Source: a bacterium (GTDB lineage: Bacteria > Planctomycetota > Planctomycetia > Pirellulales > Pirellulaceae). Taken from it: a DNA stretch of 64,000 nucleotides. How positions within the stretch are numbered: the first letter of the stretch is position 1; each line of letters starts with the position of its first letter. Both the position numbers and the translations under genes were made by a program. Where the stretch lies: the NCBI GenBank assembly GCA_030430075.1, contig JAUIGN010000013.1, positions 62,001-126,000 on the forward strand, written 5' to 3'. Positions 31,813 through 44,620 of this stretch are shown here, piece by piece. The notes under the pieces were generated by a model, which saw nothing but the letters and a program-made list of their open reading frames with translations, did not search any database and had not been told where the DNA came from.

Positions 31813-34800
31813 CTACGGTTCAGTAACCACCAGCTCGCCATTCATCACCAGCCAGTGCCCTGGGAACGTACAGAGGTACGGATACCTTCCGGGCTGCTGG
31901 GGTGCATTGAAGTAGATCGTGAAGTCACTCTGGGGCAAGACCACGTCGGTATGCGCCAGTACGTCGTCGGACTCGGGAATGTATTGTCGAATTGCCGCAT
32001 CCGGATCCGAGATCAAACGATTTGCGAGCTGCCCGACGCGTCTTAGTGTTCCCGGTTTGACAAGGGCCCAATTGTGCGGCACGACGTCGGGGTTCCGCAA
32101 CGTCAACTCGATCAGCTCTCCGGGGCGGGCTTCCAGCCGTCGAGTGGCAAAGGAGAGGTTGCTGCCGGTCGCGATGTCGATCTTACGCCCCCCTTTCCGG
32201 CGTTTCGCGAACGGATTGGGAACACTCCGTGTCGCCAGCTTCAAGTCCGTCAGAATCGGGTGGGGATTGACCACCTTCCCATCCAGCGGATGCAGTCCGG
32301 CGGCATCGAGGAAATCGACTGCCTCCAGTCGGTGCACCGTCATGAACAGCTCCCGCGAATCCTGCGCGTCGAGGGCGACCCGCAGGTGGAGTTGATTGAC
32401 GGGTTGCAGTTCGGGGATTTCGAGAAACAGGCCGCGACCGTCGTCGACCAGTCGCGCCGCGGTGATCGGCAGATGATCGTGACCTCGCATTCCCGCATGC
32501 CGGGTCGAAAACTCTGGTGATCCATAGGCACTGCTGTATCGGTAGTTCCAACACTGGGCAAAGTGGTTGTTCGGCTGCTCGGCGACGTCGGCCTCGAGGG
32601 GTGCCGAGAAACGGAGGAGAATTCCGTTGCGATACGCCTTGAATGCCGTCGGCAGGCGAACCTCATCCCCGGTGTACCGTACGCGTTGGAAGCAGCCCGA
32701 CTGCGGCGTATAGGATCCCCAACCCTGCATCCCGGTAACGTAAAGCTGTCCGTCGTGCGGCGAGAACCGTCCACGATGGGTGCCCGACAGAAAAGCGCCC
32801 GGGAGCGGCACCACGGCCCCCTGCATCTGGCCGTCAACCTCGTCCCGAAGCACCAGGAAGTGGGCTCCGGCACCGAAAGAGAAGTGCAAGAGTTGGTCCT
32901 GGAGCGGTCCCCAACGGTCACTCGTAACGACCTGCTGGCCGCCGGCAGAATTGTCGATCCCGCGGGGTAGATAGACCAGCGGCAGTTCCGGTGGTTCGTC
33001 GCCGCGCGGTCCCGGATAACCGAAGTAAGGGACAGGTTGCTTGACGCCGCTCGCCGGTTTCCGAAAAGCGCAGATCATCGTTGCCGGGGTCCAACTGCCT
33101 TCCGAGCAAGGGACGGTGACCACTCCGTCCGAGGTCAGGCCGATCCCGTCCGGATTGCGGAAGCCGGTCGCGACAACGTCCGCCTGGCGGCCGTCGGGCG
33201 AAATACGAACGATTCCCTGATTGCCGGAAGCAAGATAAAAATGTCCCTCGGCGTCGCGTTCCAACCCGCAAATGAAGTCGTGCCCCGCAGGTGAAGTTTC
33301 GTAAGCGTTGCTGAAGCACTCATAGAAATCTGCTTCGCCGTCCTGGTTCAGGTCGTGCAGTCGAGTGATCTGATCCCGACCCAACACAAAGATCCCGTCA
33401 CGGTCCACGAACAGGCCCTGGCAGTGATGCAGGCCGGATGCGAAACGCGACCAGGTGGCTTCCGTTGACGGGTGCTGGTAACCGGTCACCCGCCAGACGT
33501 CACCGTGCATCGTGCAGAGCAAGGCCGAGCCATCCGGCAGGAAACCGAGCCCGCCGCCGAAGAGCGGAATCTGCCACCGGTTGTCGAAAGGCATCTCGAT
33601 CGTATCGACGGCGTACGGACGTCCTGCGCCGGGCCGGACCGGAGTGACAAGTTGGTCCGGCCATTGCCGCGGCAACGCATCGAACTGCCGGCTTAGCGGG
33701 TGCTGTGAAAACGGCGCGACGTGGCGGACGAACTTGCCGTCCTCGACCCAGGGGGCATCCAGGTACCGGGTGTCGCCAATCCGGTAGGCAAACGCGACGC
33801 GGGCACCGATTCGATAGAGTCCTTCGTAGCGAACCGTGCGATTGTTTCTTTCCCTGCCGATCGATCGGGCGGCTTGGATCGGCCTGCCCCGGTCCGCGAT
33901 ATCGACCGGCTTGCCGTCCATCGACAGCCCATGCATGAAGCCGTGCCGGACCGATGAGAAGCTGACGAATCCGCCTCGCCAGACGGCTTCGTAGCCCAGT
34001 GTGTCCGGATTGAAGCAGGCTGATAATTCGCCGGATTCGCCCAGTTGCAGACAGACGGCCCGTGGTACCGTCAGACCGGCACCGCGAAAGATTCCGGCCT
34101 GCAACGAGCCTAACTTGACATCGTTCCAGGCGTTGCTGGCCCACGTCTCTTCGCTCTGGTTGCCCCAATGGCCCAGGGTCCCGCCATCGAGGCCGGGAAA
34201 CGGCATCAACAGGGGCGGCACGCGTTGGCCCTCACGCGCGAGACCGCGAAAAAAATCGGCCTGCTTCGCATAGAAATCGTACAGCCGATCACGATTGACC
34301 TCGGCATCCCAGTGTGGCCAATCGGCTCGCCGCAGCGGTTCCTTCGTAAGGGGAAATTCCGCAGGGCCGTGCAGATGGGCTGTGGCGTGGTGCAGGACAT
34401 GACCAATATCTGCTAACGGCAGGCCATCCGGTTGGCCCAGTCCGGCCAGGAACTTGACGAGGTCATGAACTTGCTGGCCGGTCATCGCCGCCGTCAGTTG
34501 TTCCGGCATCAAGGACCCCCGCTCCCTTCGCACCTCGATTTCGTTGACGGGAATCACCAGCCGATGGTCGGTGCCTCGGGTCGGATCGCGGAGCTCGATC
34601 TGGTTTGGAGTTTCCTTGATGATGTAGCCGGTATGTGTGGTGCCGGCGGTGGTGACGACCAGATGCGCCAGATGTTCTGGCTTGACCTGTCGCTTCGGCC
34701 AGAGCACGGATTCGACGATTTCCGTGAGCTTCCGTTCTTTGCCGATCGATGTCAGCGGCGGGCCGACCGTTCCTCCGTGCGTTCCGACCCGATGGCAACT

Positions 34801-36501
34801 AAGACAGGCCGCTTTCGCATCAGCGAAGACGAGGAGTCCCCGCGCGGCATCCCCATGGCGCAAAGCGGCATCCCGGACCGCCTCCACGCGGCTGGGCGAG
34901 TACTCAGGGGTTGGACCGAAGCGGTCGGTCGGTTGCCGAACATCGTCGGTCGGTAGCGAAGCCCCTGACGACGGTCGTTCGCTGACCCACAACAACCGGG
35001 TCGCCTCATCACGTGGTGGTGCGGTCGTCTGCCGCCAGGCAGGCAGGTCGTCGCCCGCGGCAATCCGCACCCAATCAATGTGGCCGCTGCAGCCAAGCCG
35101 CCCCTCCACGAGTCGCCCGATCGCCAGCCCGCCCGGGACGGCGGGACGCCCCTTGCCCCGAACCGGCTGGTCGGCCACGACCTGGCCGTCCACCAAGAGC
35201 CGCAGCCGCTCCGGCTTGAGGATCATCCCGACCAGGTGCGGCTTGCCATCACACAGCATCACTTGCGAGCGCGTGTGGTCCGGGATCAAACCGGGCGTGT
35301 AGGCCGTCAACAGACCGCTTCCTGCATCCGTAAAAATCTCCCAATGCGCACCTGATTGCTTGGTGTCACTGGCAACGAGAATGTTGTATCGATCACGATC
35401 GGTCAGGGTGGCACGGCAGGCGACGGTGAGTGGCGGCGAGCGGAACTCGGCCTGGCCGGGTAGTACGATTCCCTTCGGTAGAGACGCGGAACCGTCCGTG
35501 GATCGCTCGGGAGGCGACCAGGTGCGGGGCGTCGGCTTCTCGCCCGCCTCGCGGCCCTCCAGTTGGGCACGGATCCAGGCGAGCCCCTCCAGGTTGTCGC
35601 GGAGCCGCAATTCAACGTCGTCCTGCGTGTGCCCAATGACGCCGATCCTGCCCTGGTATCCGGAATCCTGGATGGCCTGCAACAGCTTCACGTCCAGCTC
35701 GCCTTGCCCCAGGGGGAGAATCTTCTGACCGCGCTGGTCTCCGTGATGCGTCATACCGTTCAGGTTGAGGCAAAGCAGATAGGGCTTCATCAGCCCGATC
35801 ACTTGGGCAAAATCATCGGTGTGATTGTGGGCATGGTGCTGGTTGTAGACGATGCCGACGTGGTCGGCGCCATGCTGCCGGTGGAGCAGTTTGCAGACGG
35901 CGACCAGATTCTCCGGTTCGCCGCCCCATCCGCCGTGATTGTAGAGCCCCAACTGGCATCCTAGTTTTCTGGTGCGCTCGACCAGCGGGAGTAACTGCGT
36001 GGCCGCCGCCTGGGCCCGCGCTGGCGGGGGCGTTTCTGCGGGCACGGCCAGCATTGTCCAGATCTGCGGATGCAGGTCGTACTTTTCGAACAGCCGGAAA
36101 GCCTCGTCGTGAACACCCCAGAAGGCGAAGTATTCCAGGCCATGCTTCTTATATTCGAGGATCTCTTGCTCGAACGTCGGGACATGCTTGGCCCGCCAAT
36201 CGTAGGCCACGCGTTGAAAGCCCAGTTCCGCGCACATGGCAGCCCGTTCCGCCGGTCCGCGCTGCTTGCCGTCGAAAGGGACGATGCACCAGGCGACCAG
36301 ATTTTCCATCGCAAAAATGCTCGGATCCTGGCCGGGAGCCTCGGCGCTGCACACGGCGGGCGACGCAGACCAGATCACGGCGAGCAGCAATCCCCAGATC
36401 AGCCCCCCGTGGACGACCGGCACCGACGAATCCGCGTCGCCGCGCGTGGCCCGACATGCGAAAGCAGCACGCCACCCGGGCGACAAGTTGAAGTTCCCCA
36501 T
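31813..36501 (-). CDS. Giant secreted redox fusion: TIM barrel, LamG-like, cytochrome c, DUF6797-like, propeller, cupredoxin
   Basis: 1562 residues; GGAG lies 8 nt before ATG 36501 (GTG at 36504 also possible). A signal segment 'GGLIWGLLLAVIWSASPAVCSA' ends near residue 53. Order: xylose-isomerase-like TIM barrel (about 60-330, 'WCIVPFDGKQRGPAERAAMCAELGF', 'GIVYNQHHAHNHTDDF', 'IGVIGHTQDDVE'); LamG-like sandwich (about 345-500); cytochrome c with C-L-S-C-H near 565 and a PVC-type haem domain to about 690; DUF6797-like region (about 700-880); beta-propeller of L-sorbosone-dehydrogenase type (about 900-1290, 'DRDGIFVLGRDQITRLHDLNQDGEADFYECF'); and a C-terminal cupredoxin with a complete type-1 copper set (His in 'VPHNW', Cys and His in 'YLCTFPGHW', Met in 'LVMNG'). 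Presumably a periplasmic sugar-oxidising or electron-transfer protein; substrate unknown. Confidence 0.92.
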   Translation of the reverse strand: MGNFNLSPGWRAAFACRATRGDADSSVPVVHGGLIWGLLLAVIWSASPAVCSAEAPGQDPSIFAMENLVAWCIVPFDGKQRGPAERAAMCAELGFQRVAYDWRAKHVPTFEQEILEYKKHGLEYFAFWGVHDEAFRLFEKYDLHPQIWTMLAVPAETPPPARAQAAATQLLPLVERTRKLGCQLGLYNHGGWGGEPENLVAVCKLLHRQHGADHVGIVYNQHHAHNHTDDFAQVIGLMKPYLLCLNLNGMTHHGDQRGQKILPLGQGELDVKLLQAIQDSGYQGRIGVIGHTQDDVELRLRDNLEGLAWIRAQLEGREAGEKPTPRTWSPPERSTDGSASLPKGIVLPGQAEFRSPPLTVACRATLTDRDRYNILVASDTKQSGAHWEIFTDAGSGLLTAYTPGLIPDHTRSQVMLCDGKPHLVGMILKPERLRLLVDGQVVADQPVRGKGRPAVPGGLAIGRLVEGRLGCSGHIDWVRIAAGDDLPAWRQTTAPPRDEATRLLWVSERPSSGASLPTDDVRQPTDRFGPTPEYSPSRVEAVRDAALRHGDAARGLLVFADAKAACLSCHRVGTHGGTVGPPLTSIGKERKLTEIVESVLWPKRQVKPEHLAHLVVTTAGTTHTGYIIKETPNQIELRDPTRGTDHRLVIPVNEIEVRRERGSLMPEQLTAAMTGQQVHDLVKFLAGLGQPDGLPLADIGHVLHHATAHLHGPAEFPLTKEPLRRADWPHWDAEVNRDRLYDFYAKQADFFRGLAREGQRVPPLLMPFPGLDGGTLGHWGNQSEETWASNAWNDVKLGSLQAGIFRGAGLTVPRAVCLQLGESGELSACFNPDTLGYEAVWRGGFVSFSSVRHGFMHGLSMDGKPVDIADRGRPIQAARSIGRERNNRTVRYEGLYRIGARVAFAYRIGDTRYLDAPWVEDGKFVRHVAPFSQHPLSRQFDALPRQWPDQLVTPVRPGAGRPYAVDTIEMPFDNRWQIPLFGGGLGFLPDGSALLCTMHGDVWRVTGYQHPSTEATWSRFASGLHHCQGLFVDRDGIFVLGRDQITRLHDLNQDGEADFYECFSNAYETSPAGHDFICGLERDAEGHFYLASGNQGIVRISPDGRQADVVATGFRNPDGIGLTSDGVVTVPCSEGSWTPATMICAFRKPASGVKQPVPYFGYPGPRGDEPPELPLVYLPRGIDNSAGGQQVVTSDRWGPLQDQLLHFSFGAGAHFLVLRDEVDGQMQGAVVPLPGAFLSGTHRGRFSPHDGQLYVTGMQGWGSYTPQSGCFQRVRYTGDEVRLPTAFKAYRNGILLRFSAPLEADVAEQPNNHFAQCWNYRYSSAYGSPEFSTRHAGMRGHDHLPITAARLVDDGRGLFLEIPELQPVNQLHLRVALDAQDSRELFMTVHRLEAVDFLDAAGLHPLDGKVVNPHPILTDLKLATRSVPNPFAKRRKGGRKIDIATGSNLSFATRRLEARPGELIELTLRNPDVVPHNWALVKPGTLRRVGQLANRLISDPDAAIRQYIPESDDVLAHTDVVLPQSDFTIYFNAPQQPGRYPYLCTFPGHWLVMNGELVVTEP

Positions 36502-36760
36502 CACAAAATCTCCAGCACGTGACTCGTTGGGCGCGTCGTTTCGCGGCCTTCGCCGGTGCGATACAATCGACGGCCGCGTGGCACCAACGGCGAGGAAGCA
36601 TGGTTGATGTTCACGCTTGAAATGGCCTTCTGGTGCGCCGAGTGAGCCTGCGAATGCACGGTCCCCCGCCAGTCACCTGCGCGGCCAGGATGGCGCAGCG
36701 TTCGATGAAACGTCGAATTCATCATTGAAACACAACCCCGTCGGTGGAACAAGCAAATCG

Positions 36761-38038: not shown

Positions 38039-38296
38039 GCTGGATGTGGACATGAGTCCGCGGGCGGCGGTCGGGCCTGACGATCGGCCGGTAAGATGAA
38101 GTCGGAGGACGCCCCGCCAAAGCGCCATGGACGCGTTGTATTCGAGGAACGCGAACCGACAATCCTCGCACCACGCTCGGGTCGTCGCGCACCCGGCAAC
38201 GAAGTGAGAAGCCAAGCGGCGTGCCGCGGAAGAAGCGATTCACGCGGCTCCCAGTACCCATGTTCGTCCATCGTTGGTCCCTTGAAGGAAGCACAC

Positions 38297-39580
38297 ATGC
38301 ATCGCCGAATGAAGGTCTGCCTGACCGCGATCACCGCGTCGTTGTTCACAGTCGCCGCCGCAGCACAAGCCATTGAAAAGCCGCCTCGCGTTGACGTCGA
38401 CGGCAAGATTTCTTGGGTCTACGATTATGCCGAAGGGCAGTTGCTCAGCCAGGCCAGCGGCAAGCCGATGTTTGTCGTGTTTCGCTGCGAACGCTGACTG
38501 GACTGCTCGAATTTCGACGGGCAGGTTGTCCGTCAAGACGATGAAATCGCCGAACTGGCCACCAAGTTCGTCTGCGTGCGGATTCAGTCGATGAACGGCA
38601 TGAATCTGAACCAGTTTCAGTTCGAATATGATCTGACCTGGATGGCCTTCTTTCAGAATGCATCCGGCCAGACTTACTTGCGCTACGGCGGCCGCCGGGA
38701 CGCGGATGCGGAGACGTATATGACGAAGGCATCGCTGGTTCGTGCCATGCGGCAGACGCTGGTGCTGCACGAACAGGGGGCCGCCAAGCCAAGCAGCCGT
38801 TACGAGCCGGTTGCCGAGCGGGTGAGGACGCCTGCAGACATTCCGCCGATGCGGGGCATGATCAGCCGTCGCAAGGTGAGTTGCATCCACTGCCACGACG
38901 TGAAGGTCGCCGAATTACGTCATGCCCGTGACCAGGGAACCCTCCGCAAGGAAATGGTTTTCACCTATCCTGATCCTGCGAACCTGGGAATTCGCTTGGA
39001 TCCCGACATTCAGTACCGAGTGGCCTCCGTCGCGCCCGCCTCGTCGGCCGCCGCGGCCGGTATCCGTGTGGGCGACCTCGTCCGCCAAGTTGAGGGGCAG
39101 CGAACACTCACGTTCGCAGATTTCACGCGGGTTCTCGAGTTGGCGCCGGCGAGCGGGACGCTGGGGATCGTCGTCGAACGGAACGGCCGTCGGCAGGACG
39201 AGATGCAGTTGCAACTGCGCCCCGGGTGGCGCAAATCAGCCGACCCGTCCTGGCGCGCATCCGGAGGGGTCGTCGGGCCGAACGCCGGGTTGTGGGGCGT
39301 TCCGGCAGACCAGGCTCGACGCCGTGAAATCGGCCTGACGGCGAACGATCTGGCGATCAAGGTCACTTTCATTCACAAACCCTGGTCACGCTCGGCCGGC
39401 ATTCGCTTGAATGATTACATCCTCTCGATTGATGGTCAGTCGAACCACATGACGACGCGCCAGATGCAATCCTACCTGCACCAAAACACGGATTGGGGGG
39501 ACACGATCGAACTGGTCCTATATCGAGACGGAAAGAAACGCACTGTGCAGATGACCTTTCCAGACTCACCGCCCGAGTAG
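38297..39580 (+). CDS. Secreted thioredoxin-like/PDZ protein with in-frame UGA; selenoprotein candidate
   Basis: 427 residues if UGA at 38495-38497 is read as selenocysteine. ATG 38297 has AAGGA 7 nt upstream and starts a signal peptide (HRRMKVCLTAITASLFTVAAAAQA). The frame runs without interruption to TAG at 39578-39580 except for that one UGA at codon 67. Reading through gives C64-E-R-U67-L-D-C70 in a thioredoxin-like domain ('KPMFVVFRCER' before, 'FDGQVVRQDDEIAELATKFVCVRIQS' after), then C196-I-H-C199-H200, and two PDZ domains (about 240-315 and 345-425, 'SRSAGIRLNDYILSIDGQ'). I recall a planctomycete family named 'Trx7/PDZ domain-containing (seleno)protein', which fits. The alternative is a nonsense mutation: the downstream part then lacks a signal peptide and any ribosome-binding site. 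Confidence 0.85.
38516..38534 (+). promoter_or_regulatory. Candidate bacterial SECIS hairpin
   Basis: GACGG (38516-38520) pairs with CCGTC (38530-38534) around a 9-nt loop GCAGGTTGT. The loop begins 24 nt after the UGA and its first base is G. The general rules for bacterial SECIS elements ask for a loop of 3-14 nt, a G in its first two positions, a stem of at least 4 bp and a loop 16-37 nt from UGA; all are met. A U-A extension on both sides past a bulged C is possible. Short GC-rich hairpins also arise by chance. Confidence 0.5.
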
Positions 39581-40051
39581 CGCGGGCCGGCCAACCTGAA
39601 CCGGACCAGATCAAGCCGGGCCTTCTACGTGCAAATGGGCTGGTTTTTTGTGGCGGCGACTGCCTGGGCGAGCGGCCGCTGCCGTTCTGTGGCGGACCGA
39701 GTCATCGCCGGCGCTGGCAGAACGGCGGAAGTCATTCATTAGCCGTCTTTTACTGACAGGAACCGTTCCGTGAATCGGGTCGTTTCGGTTATACTGGTGG
39801 GTTCGGTGCGCGGGTGCTCCGTTGCGGCGAGCCGTTACCGGCCGAAAGCAGTTGACGCCGTGAGCAGTTGAGGAACGGGTCGCCATTCGCAGCCGGTCAG
39901 CGTCCGCCCAGCGCGGCGCGGGGCCGCCGGAAAACGCAGCGTCCGGTTCGCTCGGCGATCTACGGCACCGTGGGCGAACGCCCCACGATTGATGGACCCC
40001 ACGATTGATGGAGCAGCCGGGTCGGTACACGACAACTTTTCGGAGCATTCC
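39581..40051. other. Intergenic region between the Trx/PDZ gene and the third PSCyt1 gene
   Basis: 471 bp, no supportable gene. It includes a TATACT hexamer at 39790-39795 that could be a -10 element (no good -35 at 17 bp) and a perfect 16-bp tandem duplication at 39981-40012. Confidence 0.4.
39981..40012. repeat. Perfect 16-bp tandem duplication
   Basis: CCCCACGATTGATGGA is present twice head to tail, about 40 bp upstream of the GTG start of the PSCyt1 gene. Confidence 0.9.
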
Positions 40052-43000
40052 GTGATTAGCACGCGATCGATCCAGTGCAGCTCGATGGTCTTTCTCTCGC
40101 TCACGATGGGAGTTGGCCTGTCGACCTTTGGCGCCGATGATGGCCAGCACGTCCAGTTCTTCGAAACGCGCATTCGTCCGGTGCTGGTCGAACACTGTTA
40201 CGCGTGTCATGCCTCGACGGGCGACGAGGTCAAAGGGGGACTGGTCCTTGATTCCCGTGCCGGCTTGATCAAGGGCGGAGACTCGGGGCCGGCGCTGGTG
40301 AAGCATCAGCCGGATGCGAGCTTGCTGATTGAGGCCCTGCGCTACGAGGGATTGGAAATGCCTCCTGCCGGCAAATTGCCGGACGAGGTGATTCGCGACT
40401 TCGAGCGCTGGATCAAGCTGGGCGCACCGGATCCCCGTTCGGAAGCATTGGGGCCGCGCCCGGCAACTCGCACGATCGACATCGACGAGGGGCGTCGGTT
40501 CTGGTCGTTCCAACAGCCTCGCCGCCACGCACCGCCGCCAGTCCAAGCCGCGGACTGGCCCCGTAACCGAATCGATCACTTTGTTCTTGCCCGGCTCGAA
40601 GCGGCCGACGTGAGCCCCGTCGGCGACGCCCCAACGGCAGCCCTGATTCGCCGCATCTACTTCGATTTGACCGGTTTACCGCCCGCGCCGAGCGAACTGG
40701 CGGCGGCATTGCACGAGGAGGGGGACGCAGCCCTGGAGTCGCTCGTCGACCGGCTGCTCGATTCGCCTCAGTTCGGTGCGCATTGGGGAAGGCACTGGTT
40801 GGACGTCGCCAGGTATGCCGACTCCAACGGCAGTGATTTCAACGCAACCTTTCACAATGCTTGGCGCTATCGCGACTACGTGGTCAACGCCATGAACGGC
40901 GACAAGCCATTTGATCAGTTCGTCCGCGAACAGATTGCCGGCGATCTCCTTCCCTTTGCTTCGGACGCTCAACGGGCGGAGCAGCTCATCGCGACCGGGT
41001 TCTTGATGCTCGGCGCCAAGATGTTAAGCGAACGTGACAAAGAGAAGCTGCAGATGGACGTGGTGGACGAGCAAATCAGCACGGTTGGCAGCGCCTTCAT
41101 GGGCATGACGTTGGGGTGTGCCCGATGTCATGATCACAAGTTCGATCCCATTCCCATGCGGGACTACTATGCCTTGGCGGGAATCTTTCGCAGTTCACGG
41201 ACGCTGCACGGCGAGAGCCAGAAATACGTCTCCACCTGGCGGCGCCGCGGGCTCCCCGCCGATCCAGCCCATCTGAAAGCGGTCCGCCGGCACGAGCAAA
41301 AAGAGAAAGAGTTGGGCGCGGCCGTGGCCGCCTCCAAAAAACGGTTGCAGAAGCTGGAGCGTCAACTGAATGGGCTGGCCGCGACAGCCAACCCGCTGTT
41401 GGTCGACAATGTTGCTGCCAAACTGATGGGCTCCTGGAAGTCATCGACGCTGGTCCCCAGTTTCATCGGTCCCGGTTACCTTCACGACGACAAGCAGGGT
41501 AAGGGATCCAAGTCGGCTTCCTTTACGTTCTCGCCGCCGGCGGCCGGTGACTATGAAGTTCGCGTCTCCTACACGTCCGGTTCGAGCCGCGAGAAGCGGG
41601 TTCCGATCACGATCCTGCACGCGGAGGGACAAGCACAGGTCACGCTTGACCAAAGTCGTAAGCCGCCCATCGAGGGACTATTTGCCTCTGTGGGCACCTT
41701 TCGCTTCGCCATGGATCGCCCGGCCACGGTGACGATCTCCAATGCCGGGACAACCGGCCACGTCATAGTCGACGCGGTCGAGCTGGTGCAGCTTGACGCG
41801 GCCGGCGCACCGGTCGCGGCGGCGGCACGGGAGACGACGGACGCAGCGACACCGATTCGGACCGAGATGGCGGCGGTGAAGAAAGAGATCGCAGACCTGG
41901 AACAACAGGAAAAGGAGCATGCGGATGCCGCTCCCCCGCCGCTTCCTCAGGCAATTGCCGTCGCCGAGCTGGACGAGATCGATGACTGTGCGATTTGCAT
42001 TCGAGGAGAACATCACAATCGGGGCGAGCTCGTGCCGCGCGGATTTCTCCAGGTTGCCTCGACCGGCGCCCCTCCCACGCTGCCCGACGGGGAGAGCGGC
42101 CGCCGACAATTGGCGGATTGGATCGCCAGTCCGGACCATCCGTTGACGGGGCGCGTAATCGTCAATCGCGTCTGGCACCATCTCATCGGCGCAGGACTGG
42201 TCCGCAGTGTTGATAACTTTGGACAACTGGGCGAACGTCCCTCGCATCCCGAGTTGCTTGACGATCTGGCTGCCCGCTTCGTCTCACCCAGTGGCGACGG
42301 CGGTTTCGCCTGGTCGATCAAGCAACTTGTTCGTGAAATCGTGCTGAGCCGGACGTATCAGCTTGCCAGCGACCATGACGAGGTATCGTGGACGGCCGAT
42401 CCCGAGAACCGGCTGTTGTGGCACGCGCATCGAAAGCGTTTGCCTGCCGAGTCGATTCGCGATTCCATGCTGGCAATCAGTGGTACTTTGGATCTCAGCC
42501 CGGGCGGATCCCCCGTCGAGGGATTGGGTACGCTGGTCAACAACAACAGCGCTTCGGCGAAATCGTACCGATCGGAGGAGACCAGCAAACGGAGCCTCTA
42601 TTTGCCGATTATTCGTAACGAGTTGCCGGCGGCGTTGACCGCTTTTGATTTCGCGGATCCGGATCTGGTCGTCGGCCGACGGCCGGTCACGAACGTCCCT
42701 GCGCAAGCGCTGCTGTTGATGAACAGCCAATTCGTGATGGACTCCGCCCGCCTGACGGCAGCCGCCTTGCTCCGCGATTCCGCCATGACCACCGAACAAC
42801 TGGTCGCGGCGACGTACCGGCGCGTACTGGCACGCGATCCGACGCCAACCGAGGTCGAACAGGCGGTCAGCTACCTGCAAGTCGCGCCGCCTGGGGCGAC
42901 CGAGGGGCCAACCGACCTGCCCGTTCGACCAACGGAGACGCGTTTGGGCCGCTTTGTGCATGTCCTGTTCGCTTCAACCGAGTTTCGCATGCTAGATTAA
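40052..43000 (+). CDS. PSCyt1 / DUF1549 / DUF1553 protein with golvesin-like insert (copy 3)
   Basis: 982 residues from GTG 40052, preceded by CGGAG with 6 nt spacing; the frame is open 21 codons further back but across the tandem duplication. Signal peptide 'ISTRSIQCSSMVFLSLTMGVGLSTFGA'. PSCyt1 motif C49-Y-A-C52-H53; DUF1549 (about 170-380) ending in C356-A-R-C359-H-D-H; a Lys/Glu-rich coiled coil (about 410-450); a golvesin-like beta-sandwich (about 455-590, 'FIGPGYLHDDKQGKGSKSASFTF', 'AGDYEVRVSYTSGSSREKRVPI'); a second short coiled coil; DUF1553 (about 695-980, 'RVWHHLIGAGLVRSVDNFGQLGERPSHPELLDDLA'). Paired with the DUF1501 gene 226 bp downstream. Confidence 0.95.
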   Translation: MISTRSIQCSSMVFLSLTMGVGLSTFGADDGQHVQFFETRIRPVLVEHCYACHASTGDEVKGGLVLDSRAGLIKGGDSGPALVKHQPDASLLIEALRYEGLEMPPAGKLPDEVIRDFERWIKLGAPDPRSEALGPRPATRTIDIDEGRRFWSFQQPRRHAPPPVQAADWPRNRIDHFVLARLEAADVSPVGDAPTAALIRRIYFDLTGLPPAPSELAAALHEEGDAALESLVDRLLDSPQFGAHWGRHWLDVARYADSNGSDFNATFHNAWRYRDYVVNAMNGDKPFDQFVREQIAGDLLPFASDAQRAEQLIATGFLMLGAKMLSERDKEKLQMDVVDEQISTVGSAFMGMTLGCARCHDHKFDPIPMRDYYALAGIFRSSRTLHGESQKYVSTWRRRGLPADPAHLKAVRRHEQKEKELGAAVAASKKRLQKLERQLNGLAATANPLLVDNVAAKLMGSWKSSTLVPSFIGPGYLHDDKQGKGSKSASFTFSPPAAGDYEVRVSYTSGSSREKRVPITILHAEGQAQVTLDQSRKPPIEGLFASVGTFRFAMDRPATVTISNAGTTGHVIVDAVELVQLDAAGAPVAAAARETTDAATPIRTEMAAVKKEIADLEQQEKEHADAAPPPLPQAIAVAELDEIDDCAICIRGEHHNRGELVPRGFLQVASTGAPPTLPDGESGRRQLADWIASPDHPLTGRVIVNRVWHHLIGAGLVRSVDNFGQLGERPSHPELLDDLAARFVSPSGDGGFAWSIKQLVREIVLSRTYQLASDHDEVSWTADPENRLLWHAHRKRLPAESIRDSMLAISGTLDLSPGGSPVEGLGTLVNNNSASAKSYRSEETSKRSLYLPIIRNELPAALTAFDFADPDLVVGRRPVTNVPAQALLLMNSQFVMDSARLTAAALLRDSAMTTEQLVAATYRRVLARDPTPTEVEQAVSYLQVAPPGATEGPTDLPVRPTETRLGRFVHVLFASTEFRMLD

Positions 43001-43113
43001 GGATCCCCGCCTGGCCCACCCGAGCAACCGCGCGATCGAGGAGGCCGCCGCGACCGGACCGTGTCCCCTGCCCTATTCATCCTGTTACCCCCGATACCGT
43101 TCGATCGGATTCC

Positions 43114-43142
43114 GCACTTCCGCAGGTCATGGCGTGCATGAC
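43114..43142 (+). repeat. Dispersed palindromic element, family B, copy 3 (weak)
   Basis: GTCATGGCGTGCATGAC (43126-43142) differs at two positions from the copy at 61172 and is preceded by GCACTTCCGCAG. Confidence 0.5.
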
Positions 43143-43225
43143 ATTCAGTACTGCGACCGAGCGACATGCACGGAAGCGCTGCTCGCTCATGATGAATCCG
43201 CACTGAGTTTCCCGGAGAAATGTCG

Positions 43226-44620
43226 ATGAGAACGCGACGTTCGATTTCACGCCGCGATGCCATGTTGAGAACGGCTTCCGGCTTGGGCGGGCTGGTCCTG
43301 GGAGGCTTGCCGGCTCAGGTTGGCCTGGCTGGATCCAGCCAGACGAGTGCTCGGCAGCCCCACCATGCGCCGCGTGCCAAGCGTGCCATCTTCCTCTTCA
43401 TGCATGGCGGCCCGAGCCAGGTCGATACGTTCGACTATAAGCCTCGGCTACAACAGGACGATGGTAAGGAACTGCCGTTCGACGCGGCCAGCAACATCGA
43501 CGCCGTGCCCAAACTGATGAAGTCTCCCTGGAAGTTTGCGCAACACGGTCAGTCGGGACGGTGGGTCTCCGAGTTGCTACCGAATATCGCTCGACATGTG
43601 GATGACCTGTGCGTCATTCGATCGATGTACAGCCGCGGTCAATCCCACGGGCAGGCGGTCAGTATGCTGCATACCGGGAGCGACAACCTGGTACGCCCAT
43701 CCGTCGGGGCCTGGGTCTCCTACGGATTGGGCACCGAGAATCCGGATCTGCCGGCCTTCGTCTCGATCAGTCCTGCCAGTGGACACGGCGGTCCCCGGAA
43801 CTACGGTTGCGCCTTTCTGCCGGCCGCGCATCAGGCGACCGCGATCGGAAATTCGGGAAAACTGGGCGATGCGAAGATTCGCCACCTCGGCAACACGACC
43901 ATTCCTCCGGAAGAGCAGCGCGAGCAGTTGGATTTGCTCCAAGCGATCAACCATCGTCATCTCGAACGTGCCGGTCGAGACAAACAGATTCGCGGGGCCA
44001 TCGAATCATTTGAGCTGGCGTACCGCATGCAGGCGGTGGCGCCGGATGTACTCGACCTTGCGCGGGAAACGGAACAACTTCAGCGGGCGTACGGCATCGG
44101 TGCCAAAGCGACCGACAACTTTGGCCGCCAGTGCCTGTTAGCTCGGCGGCTCGTCGAGTCCGGCGTGCGGTACGTGGAAGTCTCGACGGGCAATGTTTGG
44201 GACCAGCACAGCAACCTGAAGAGCGGGCATGAAAAAAACGCTTTGGCCACGGACCAACCGGTCGCCGCTCTCTTGGCGGACTTGAAGGCACGCGGCCTGC
44301 TGGAGGAGACGTTGGTCGTGTGGGGCGGCGAATTCGGTCGAACGCCAATCGTCCAGGGAAGCAATGGACGGGATCACAACCCGCAGGGCTTTACCACGTG
44401 GCTGGCGGGCGGCGGCGTCCAAGGCGGACTAGCTTACGGCAATACGGATGAATTCGGCTACTACGCAAGGGAAGATCGCGTTCACATGCACGACTTGCAT
44501 GCCACGATGCTGCACCTGCTGGGGCTCGACCATACGCGCCTCACCTACCGCTACGCGGGACGCGACTTTCGCTTGACCGATGTGTACGGAGATGTCGTTC
44601 AGGACGTAATCGCAGGTTAG
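43226..44620 (+). CDS. DUF1501 family Tat-exported protein (copy 3)
   Basis: 464 residues. Two closely spaced ATGs (43220, 43226) follow GGAGA; 43226 has the better 8-nt spacing. Twin-arginine signal '[21 protein letters not shown]'. Motifs: '[16 protein letters not shown]', '[21 protein letters not shown]', '[33 protein letters not shown]', '[33 protein letters not shown]'. It is closer in length and motif spacing to copy 1 than to copy 2. Second gene of the third PSCyt1/DUF1501 pair. Confidence 0.95.

Follow-up and report, generated by a model that had tools for sequence, protein, structure and literature searches.

The window, that is, the whole 64,000-nucleotide stretch of DNA analyzed, carries on its forward strand a reading frame that runs from an ATG at 38297 to a TAG at 39578-39580 and is interrupted by a single in-frame TGA at 38495-38497. 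Read through this codon, the frame gives a product of 427 residues including U67. The features of the locus are as follows.

38284 to 38291, forward strand: probable ribosome-binding site GAAGGAAG, from the sequence.
38297 to 39580, forward strand: complete coding sequence of the predicted Trx7/PDZ selenoprotein, read through the UGA at codon 67, stop codon TAG.
38297 to 38371, forward strand: probable signal peptide, about residues 1-25, ending in AQA (by inspection; predicted N-terminal helix 2-23).
38414 to 38629, forward strand: Thioredoxin_7 domain PF13899, residues 40-111 (Pfam, 38.4 bits, cut-off 27).
38486 to 38506, forward strand: predicted active-site motif C64-E-R-U67-L-D-C70 (sequence and alignments).
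38495 to 38497, forward strand: predicted selenocysteine codon UGA, residue 67 (only Cys or Sec in 98 relatives and in 15 named-genome relatives).
38516 to 38534, forward strand: predicted bSECIS-type hairpin GACGGGCA-GGU-UGUCCGUC (pair counts, covariation and folding).
38882 to 38896, forward strand: C196-I-H-C-H200, a CxxCH motif of the heme-c type, invariant in the family alignments.
39020 to 39181, forward strand: first PDZ domain PF17820, residues 242-295 (Pfam).
39389 to 39550, forward strand: second PDZ domain PF13180, residues 365-418 (Pfam).

The sequence-only reading had described a continuous frame broken by one TGA, preceded by a ribosome-binding site and a signal peptide and carrying on as protein beyond it. 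All these elements were recovered: the TGA is codon 67, 5 nt lie between the probable ribosome-binding site and the ATG, residues 1-25 resemble a signal peptide on inspection, and past the TGA the frame continues with homology to relatives and with the same GC content by codon position (0.59/0.45/0.73 upstream and 0.63/0.46/0.74 downstream). In a mechanical ORF listing the frame was also open further upstream, to an ATG at 38096; the start at 38297 was preferred because of the ribosome-binding site and the signal peptide. As had been anticipated, mechanical ORF calling breaks the frame at the TGA, and the read-through coding sequence corrects the annotation of a gene that ordinary callers would cut short.

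The gene is flanked by an amidohydrolase upstream and by a PSCyt1/PSD1 and DUF1501 pair downstream. This planctomycete pair, directly downstream at 39989-44620 of the window, consists of a PSCyt1/PSCyt2/PSD1 gene with an inserted Golvesin_C domain and of the DUF1501 gene. A frame of 1563 codons on the reverse strand (31813-36504) contains a xylose-isomerase-like TIM barrel, DUF6797 and DUF7133. Comparison of the window with seven other family loci revealed no conserved neighbors; beyond the gene, the similarities were scattered and unrelated. The gene neighbors give no hint of function.

The read-through product matched NCBIfam NF041199, "Trx7/PDZ domain-containing (seleno)protein", with 428.9 bits (cut-off 300) over positions 2-389 of a profile of 390, and this is the family that the sequence-only reading had named for the gene. 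In the Pfam matches, the Thioredoxin_7 domain is followed by the two PDZ stretches. The motif reads C64-E-R-U67, with the UGA three residues after Cys64 as proposed, and the third cysteine noted after it is C70 in the window gene and is present in 93 of 98 relatives. For CxxU, which had also been called the usual arrangement, a nuance applies: bacterial thioredoxin-like selenoproteins are mostly UxxC and less commonly CxxU in the table of PMC13188914, where this family is listed as CxxU.

An AlphaFold model of the product was obtained with a pLDDT of 86.5 and a pTM of 0.82. Whole-chain TM-scores in Foldseek were low, about 0.2, because the PDZ part alone matches, the solved structures resembling the model being the PDZ parts of DegP, DegQ and RseP. 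These PDZ domains are the best matches in sequence as well as in structure, the family was probably first named 'putative secreted serine protease MucD' (PMC2398784, an identification of our own), and CxxUxxC together with CxHCH offers many soft ligands. The protein might thus serve chiefly in PDZ peptide binding or quality control, as a relative of HtrA/MucD, with a CxxU motif that binds metal and performs no thiol redox chemistry. We consider this unlikely: no trypsin-like or other serine-protease domain was found among the Pfam matches of the gene, and redox activity is favored by a Thioredoxin_7 domain with CxxC or CxxU at the active-site position and by a profile match to the disulphide isomerase 3fk8. 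As judged from these features, the gene product probably has a redox role.

Relatives of the gene were found in 36 of the 147 genomes of the order and in 124 of the 392 genomes of the phylum. Among 98 distinct relatives (L119, which gave no motif, was excluded), the residue-67 column held Cys in 37, Sec (TGA) in 61 and any other residue in 0. The first motif position was Cys in 60 and TGA in 38, the motif classes being 37 CxxC, 23 CxxU and 38 UxxU. Since this set was located partly by a Cys/Sec motif, some steps of the search demanding Cys or Sec at neighboring positions, the cleaner test is an alignment of 32 sequences made without motif requirement, in which all had C or U in the residue-67 column. 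In addition, 15 loci from named genomes, mostly metagenome assemblies of Planctomycetaceae and Gemmatales, were 72-33% identical to the window gene and had TGA in 13 cases and TGC in 2; the search would have admitted W, S, R or Q at this residue as well. Alignment of homologues, which the sequence-only reading had put forward as a check, hence returned Cys or Sec alone at position 67 in all three sets (98, 32 and 15 sequences).

In the aligned relatives, homology spans the TGA on both sides, and many independent genomes, among them those of orthologues with 43-72% identity to the window gene, have the TGA in an identical column; in practice, chance and a sequencing error can therefore be dismissed. 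That the TGA is a true stop, a sequencing error or a decay mutation, leaving a pseudogene or a short peptide with a late downstream start such as the GTG at 38576, would fit the break seen in mechanical ORF calling, but it is very improbable given the shared TGA column, the conservation of both flanks and the ungapped comparison with the 72%-identical orthologue, in which synonymous and non-synonymous codons number 15:7 upstream of the TGA and 33:32 downstream.

We looked for the selenocysteine machinery in the same genome (9.24 Mb in 101 contigs), where the sequence-only reading had suggested that sel genes be sought, and all components were found. The selA (463.6 bits) and selB (355.9 bits) genes adjoin each other on contig C23, a tRNA-Sec with a UCA anticodon is present on contig C4, and selD lies on contig C94. 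This selD gene has itself an in-frame TGA, across which the motif reads CAGU, so that SelD is probably a selenoprotein too; the locus (L023, C94:132435-133361) adjoins a radical SAM-like frame. Two paralogues of the window gene also occur in the genome, a Sec form (L006) whose TGA falls at the matching place and a Cys form (L005). Within the sample of the order, SelA scored over the cut-off in 6/6 genomes with a Sec form compared with 10/30 of the others (hypergeometric p about 0.004).

Downstream of the UGA, we identified a hairpin that starts after 18 nt, has 8 of 8 pairs formed and presents a GGU loop that begins 26 nt from the UGA. It conforms to the published bSECIS rules as quoted in PMC13188914; no Rfam match was obtained at the hairpin position. 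When the window gene was folded from the UGA itself, a competing stem was more stable (-16.5 kcal/mol), whereas omitting at least the 6 nt that directly follow the UGA made the GGU hairpin the minimum-energy fold (-12.0 kcal/mol). A ribosome positioned on the UGA would remove these first nucleotides, leaving the GGU hairpin as the best fold. The simple folding energy of the 57 nt that follow the UGA set Sec forms apart from Cys forms only weakly (p=0.04), and a register-specific pair count was used in its place. In the fixed register, the mean pair count out of 8 was 6.56 in Sec forms (n=57) and 1.84 in Cys forms (n=37), a difference with p=5e-14 if kinship is ignored, and the contrast was largest at this register among all registers compared. 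Double changes were found in 26 cells compared with 6.0 in shuffles, and the covariation score of 0.264 (0.125 in shuffles) was reached in 0/500 shuffles. Seven to eight of the 8 pairs are kept in the CERU orthologues L137-L147, and 4 pairs in the close CERC forms L148 and L149. The CERC forms lose pairs although their amino acids are nearly identical, a pattern typical of a constraint on the RNA beyond protein conservation. Some Sec forms of family f44, as well as L122, are off this register (2-6 pairs); at roughly that position they have shorter stems, whose loop is of the GUU type. In the sequences compared, Sec forms thus retain the predicted hairpin and Cys forms have largely lost it, and it shows compensatory changes.

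UGA stands for Trp in some bacteria (code 4), and other reassignments occur as well. That UGA 67 might likewise be read as Trp, Cys or by near-cognate suppression, and not as Sec, is nevertheless highly unlikely in view of the full Sec machinery including the tRNA-Sec with UCA anticodon, of the restriction of the site to Cys and Sec, of the Sec-form-specific hairpin, and of TGA ending 19 of the 41 window frames of at least 300 codons (mechanical frames, not all of them genes). On the comparative sequence evidence, the gene almost certainly encodes a selenoprotein of the NF041199 Trx7/PDZ family with selenocysteine at UGA 67, where it replaces one Cys of a thioredoxin-type pair. The proposal of a probable selenoprotein is in this way borne out by the sel genes, by Cys or Sec at residue 67 and by the family match, and a planctomycete-type genome gains one strongly supported selenoprotein. 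Comparative genomics suggests that UGA 67 would be decoded by SelB and tRNA-Sec under the guidance of the bSECIS hairpin.

Both active-site positions are TGA (UxxU) in 38 relatives, or 38 of the 61 sampled Sec forms. Examples outside the window are L057, L060, L063, L066, L068, L072, L076 and L028, together with 30 more. The UxxU relatives, the SECIS hairpin and the CxxCH motif were all missing from the sequence-only reading. Most UxxU members carry an extra hairpin, placed downstream of the second TGA and upstream of the GGU hairpin. Its loop follows the first TGA by about 15 nt, a distance that borders on the published range of 16-37 nt. The best stem score was 5.2 in UxxU forms, compared with 3.1 in CxxU (p=2e-7) and 2.9 in CxxC forms (p=2e-10), kinship being ignored in both tests. 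The extra stem covaries in UxxU forms (score 0.279, 0.182 shuffled, 0/500 as high), whereas the same columns showed no covariation in CxxU forms (0.128, 0.134 shuffled). CxxU members mostly lack the extra hairpin, and the window gene, which is CxxU, is without it. On the tree, about 16 changes are needed to account for UxxU versus all other forms and only 2 for CxxC; the first motif position has therefore switched often. Sister groups mostly fit a hairpin that tracks the first TGA, with family f86 as an exception. These patterns suggest that the extra hairpin could provide the first UGA of UxxU members with a SECIS of its own, the GGU hairpin then serving the second UGA. We found no prior report of UxxU tandem hairpins in the literature searched, a scope that leaves most subscription journals outside. 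Switching between CxxC, CxxU and UxxU with hairpins gained and lost constitutes a natural experiment on the decoding of two UGAs three codons apart.

The C-x-H-C-H sequence, located between the Thioredoxin_7 and PDZ domains, is invariant in alignments of 32 and 36 relatives; the larger relative set was gathered by demanding CxxCH (L119 gave no match) and is no test of invariance. In an exported protein, CxxCH is the attachment motif of heme c. The product carries this motif and is putatively exported, to judge from its N-terminus. Because no cytochrome c family matched in Pfam or NCBIfam up to E=1, heme on CxxCH is put forward tentatively: the motif may bear it, with a probability that we place somewhat below even, and a metal site is as possible as heme. 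Among the papers searched, none joins planctomycetes, CXXCH, thioredoxin and PDZ. The motif offers a testable lead on what the protein does.

Taken together, these features outline how a redox-active selenoprotein might work. The protein would be secreted and act outside the cytoplasm, where C64-x-x-U67 would cycle between a selenenylsulfide and the reduced selenol/thiol. It would then be an oxidoreductase of the thiol-disulfide (or peroxide/methionine-sulfoxide) type, and its two HtrA-like PDZ domains would hold a protein or peptide partner, probably choosing it. The CxxCH motif may bind a c-type heme covalently or hold another metal, through which electrons could pass to or from the selenol. 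The full picture of a secreted seleno-redox relay, combining a C/UxxU site with a c-type heme on CxxCH and, in UxxU members, one SECIS per UGA, is speculative and in our estimate rather doubtful as a whole.

The gene is an additional member of an already described selenoprotein family. A 2026 review (PMC13188914) lists NF041199 (trx7_PDZ_seleno) as a Trx7/PDZ domain-containing protein with CxxU and one Sec, and a 2022 review (PMC9312934) lists a PDZ domain-containing/pfam13899 selenoprotein with CxxU. In 2008, the Global Ocean Sampling study (PMC2398784) reported a CxxU selenoprotein, with two Sec sequences only, under the MucD name; it very probably belongs to the same family as NF041199 and would be its first report. 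The NF041199 entry and the window gene are alike over their whole length, in domain order and in CxxU. Nothing essential differs from the table entry of PMC13188914, which is without the UxxU two-Sec form and without CxxCH. The MucD-named protein and the PMC9312934 entry share CxxU, PDZ and Thioredoxin_7 with the window gene, but the name MucD implies a protease and Pfam finds no such domain here. Similarly, HtrA/DegP and RseP share PDZ folds with the window gene but have a protease domain that it lacks. The VPGUxxT family (NF041382/NF041383) has a related Trx-like N-terminal part, but its match to the window gene is weak (24.6 bits, far under the cut-off of 350) and its Sec motif differs. Measured against these known systems, a specialist may be unfamiliar with the tandem hairpins of the UxxU forms and with the CxxCH motif.
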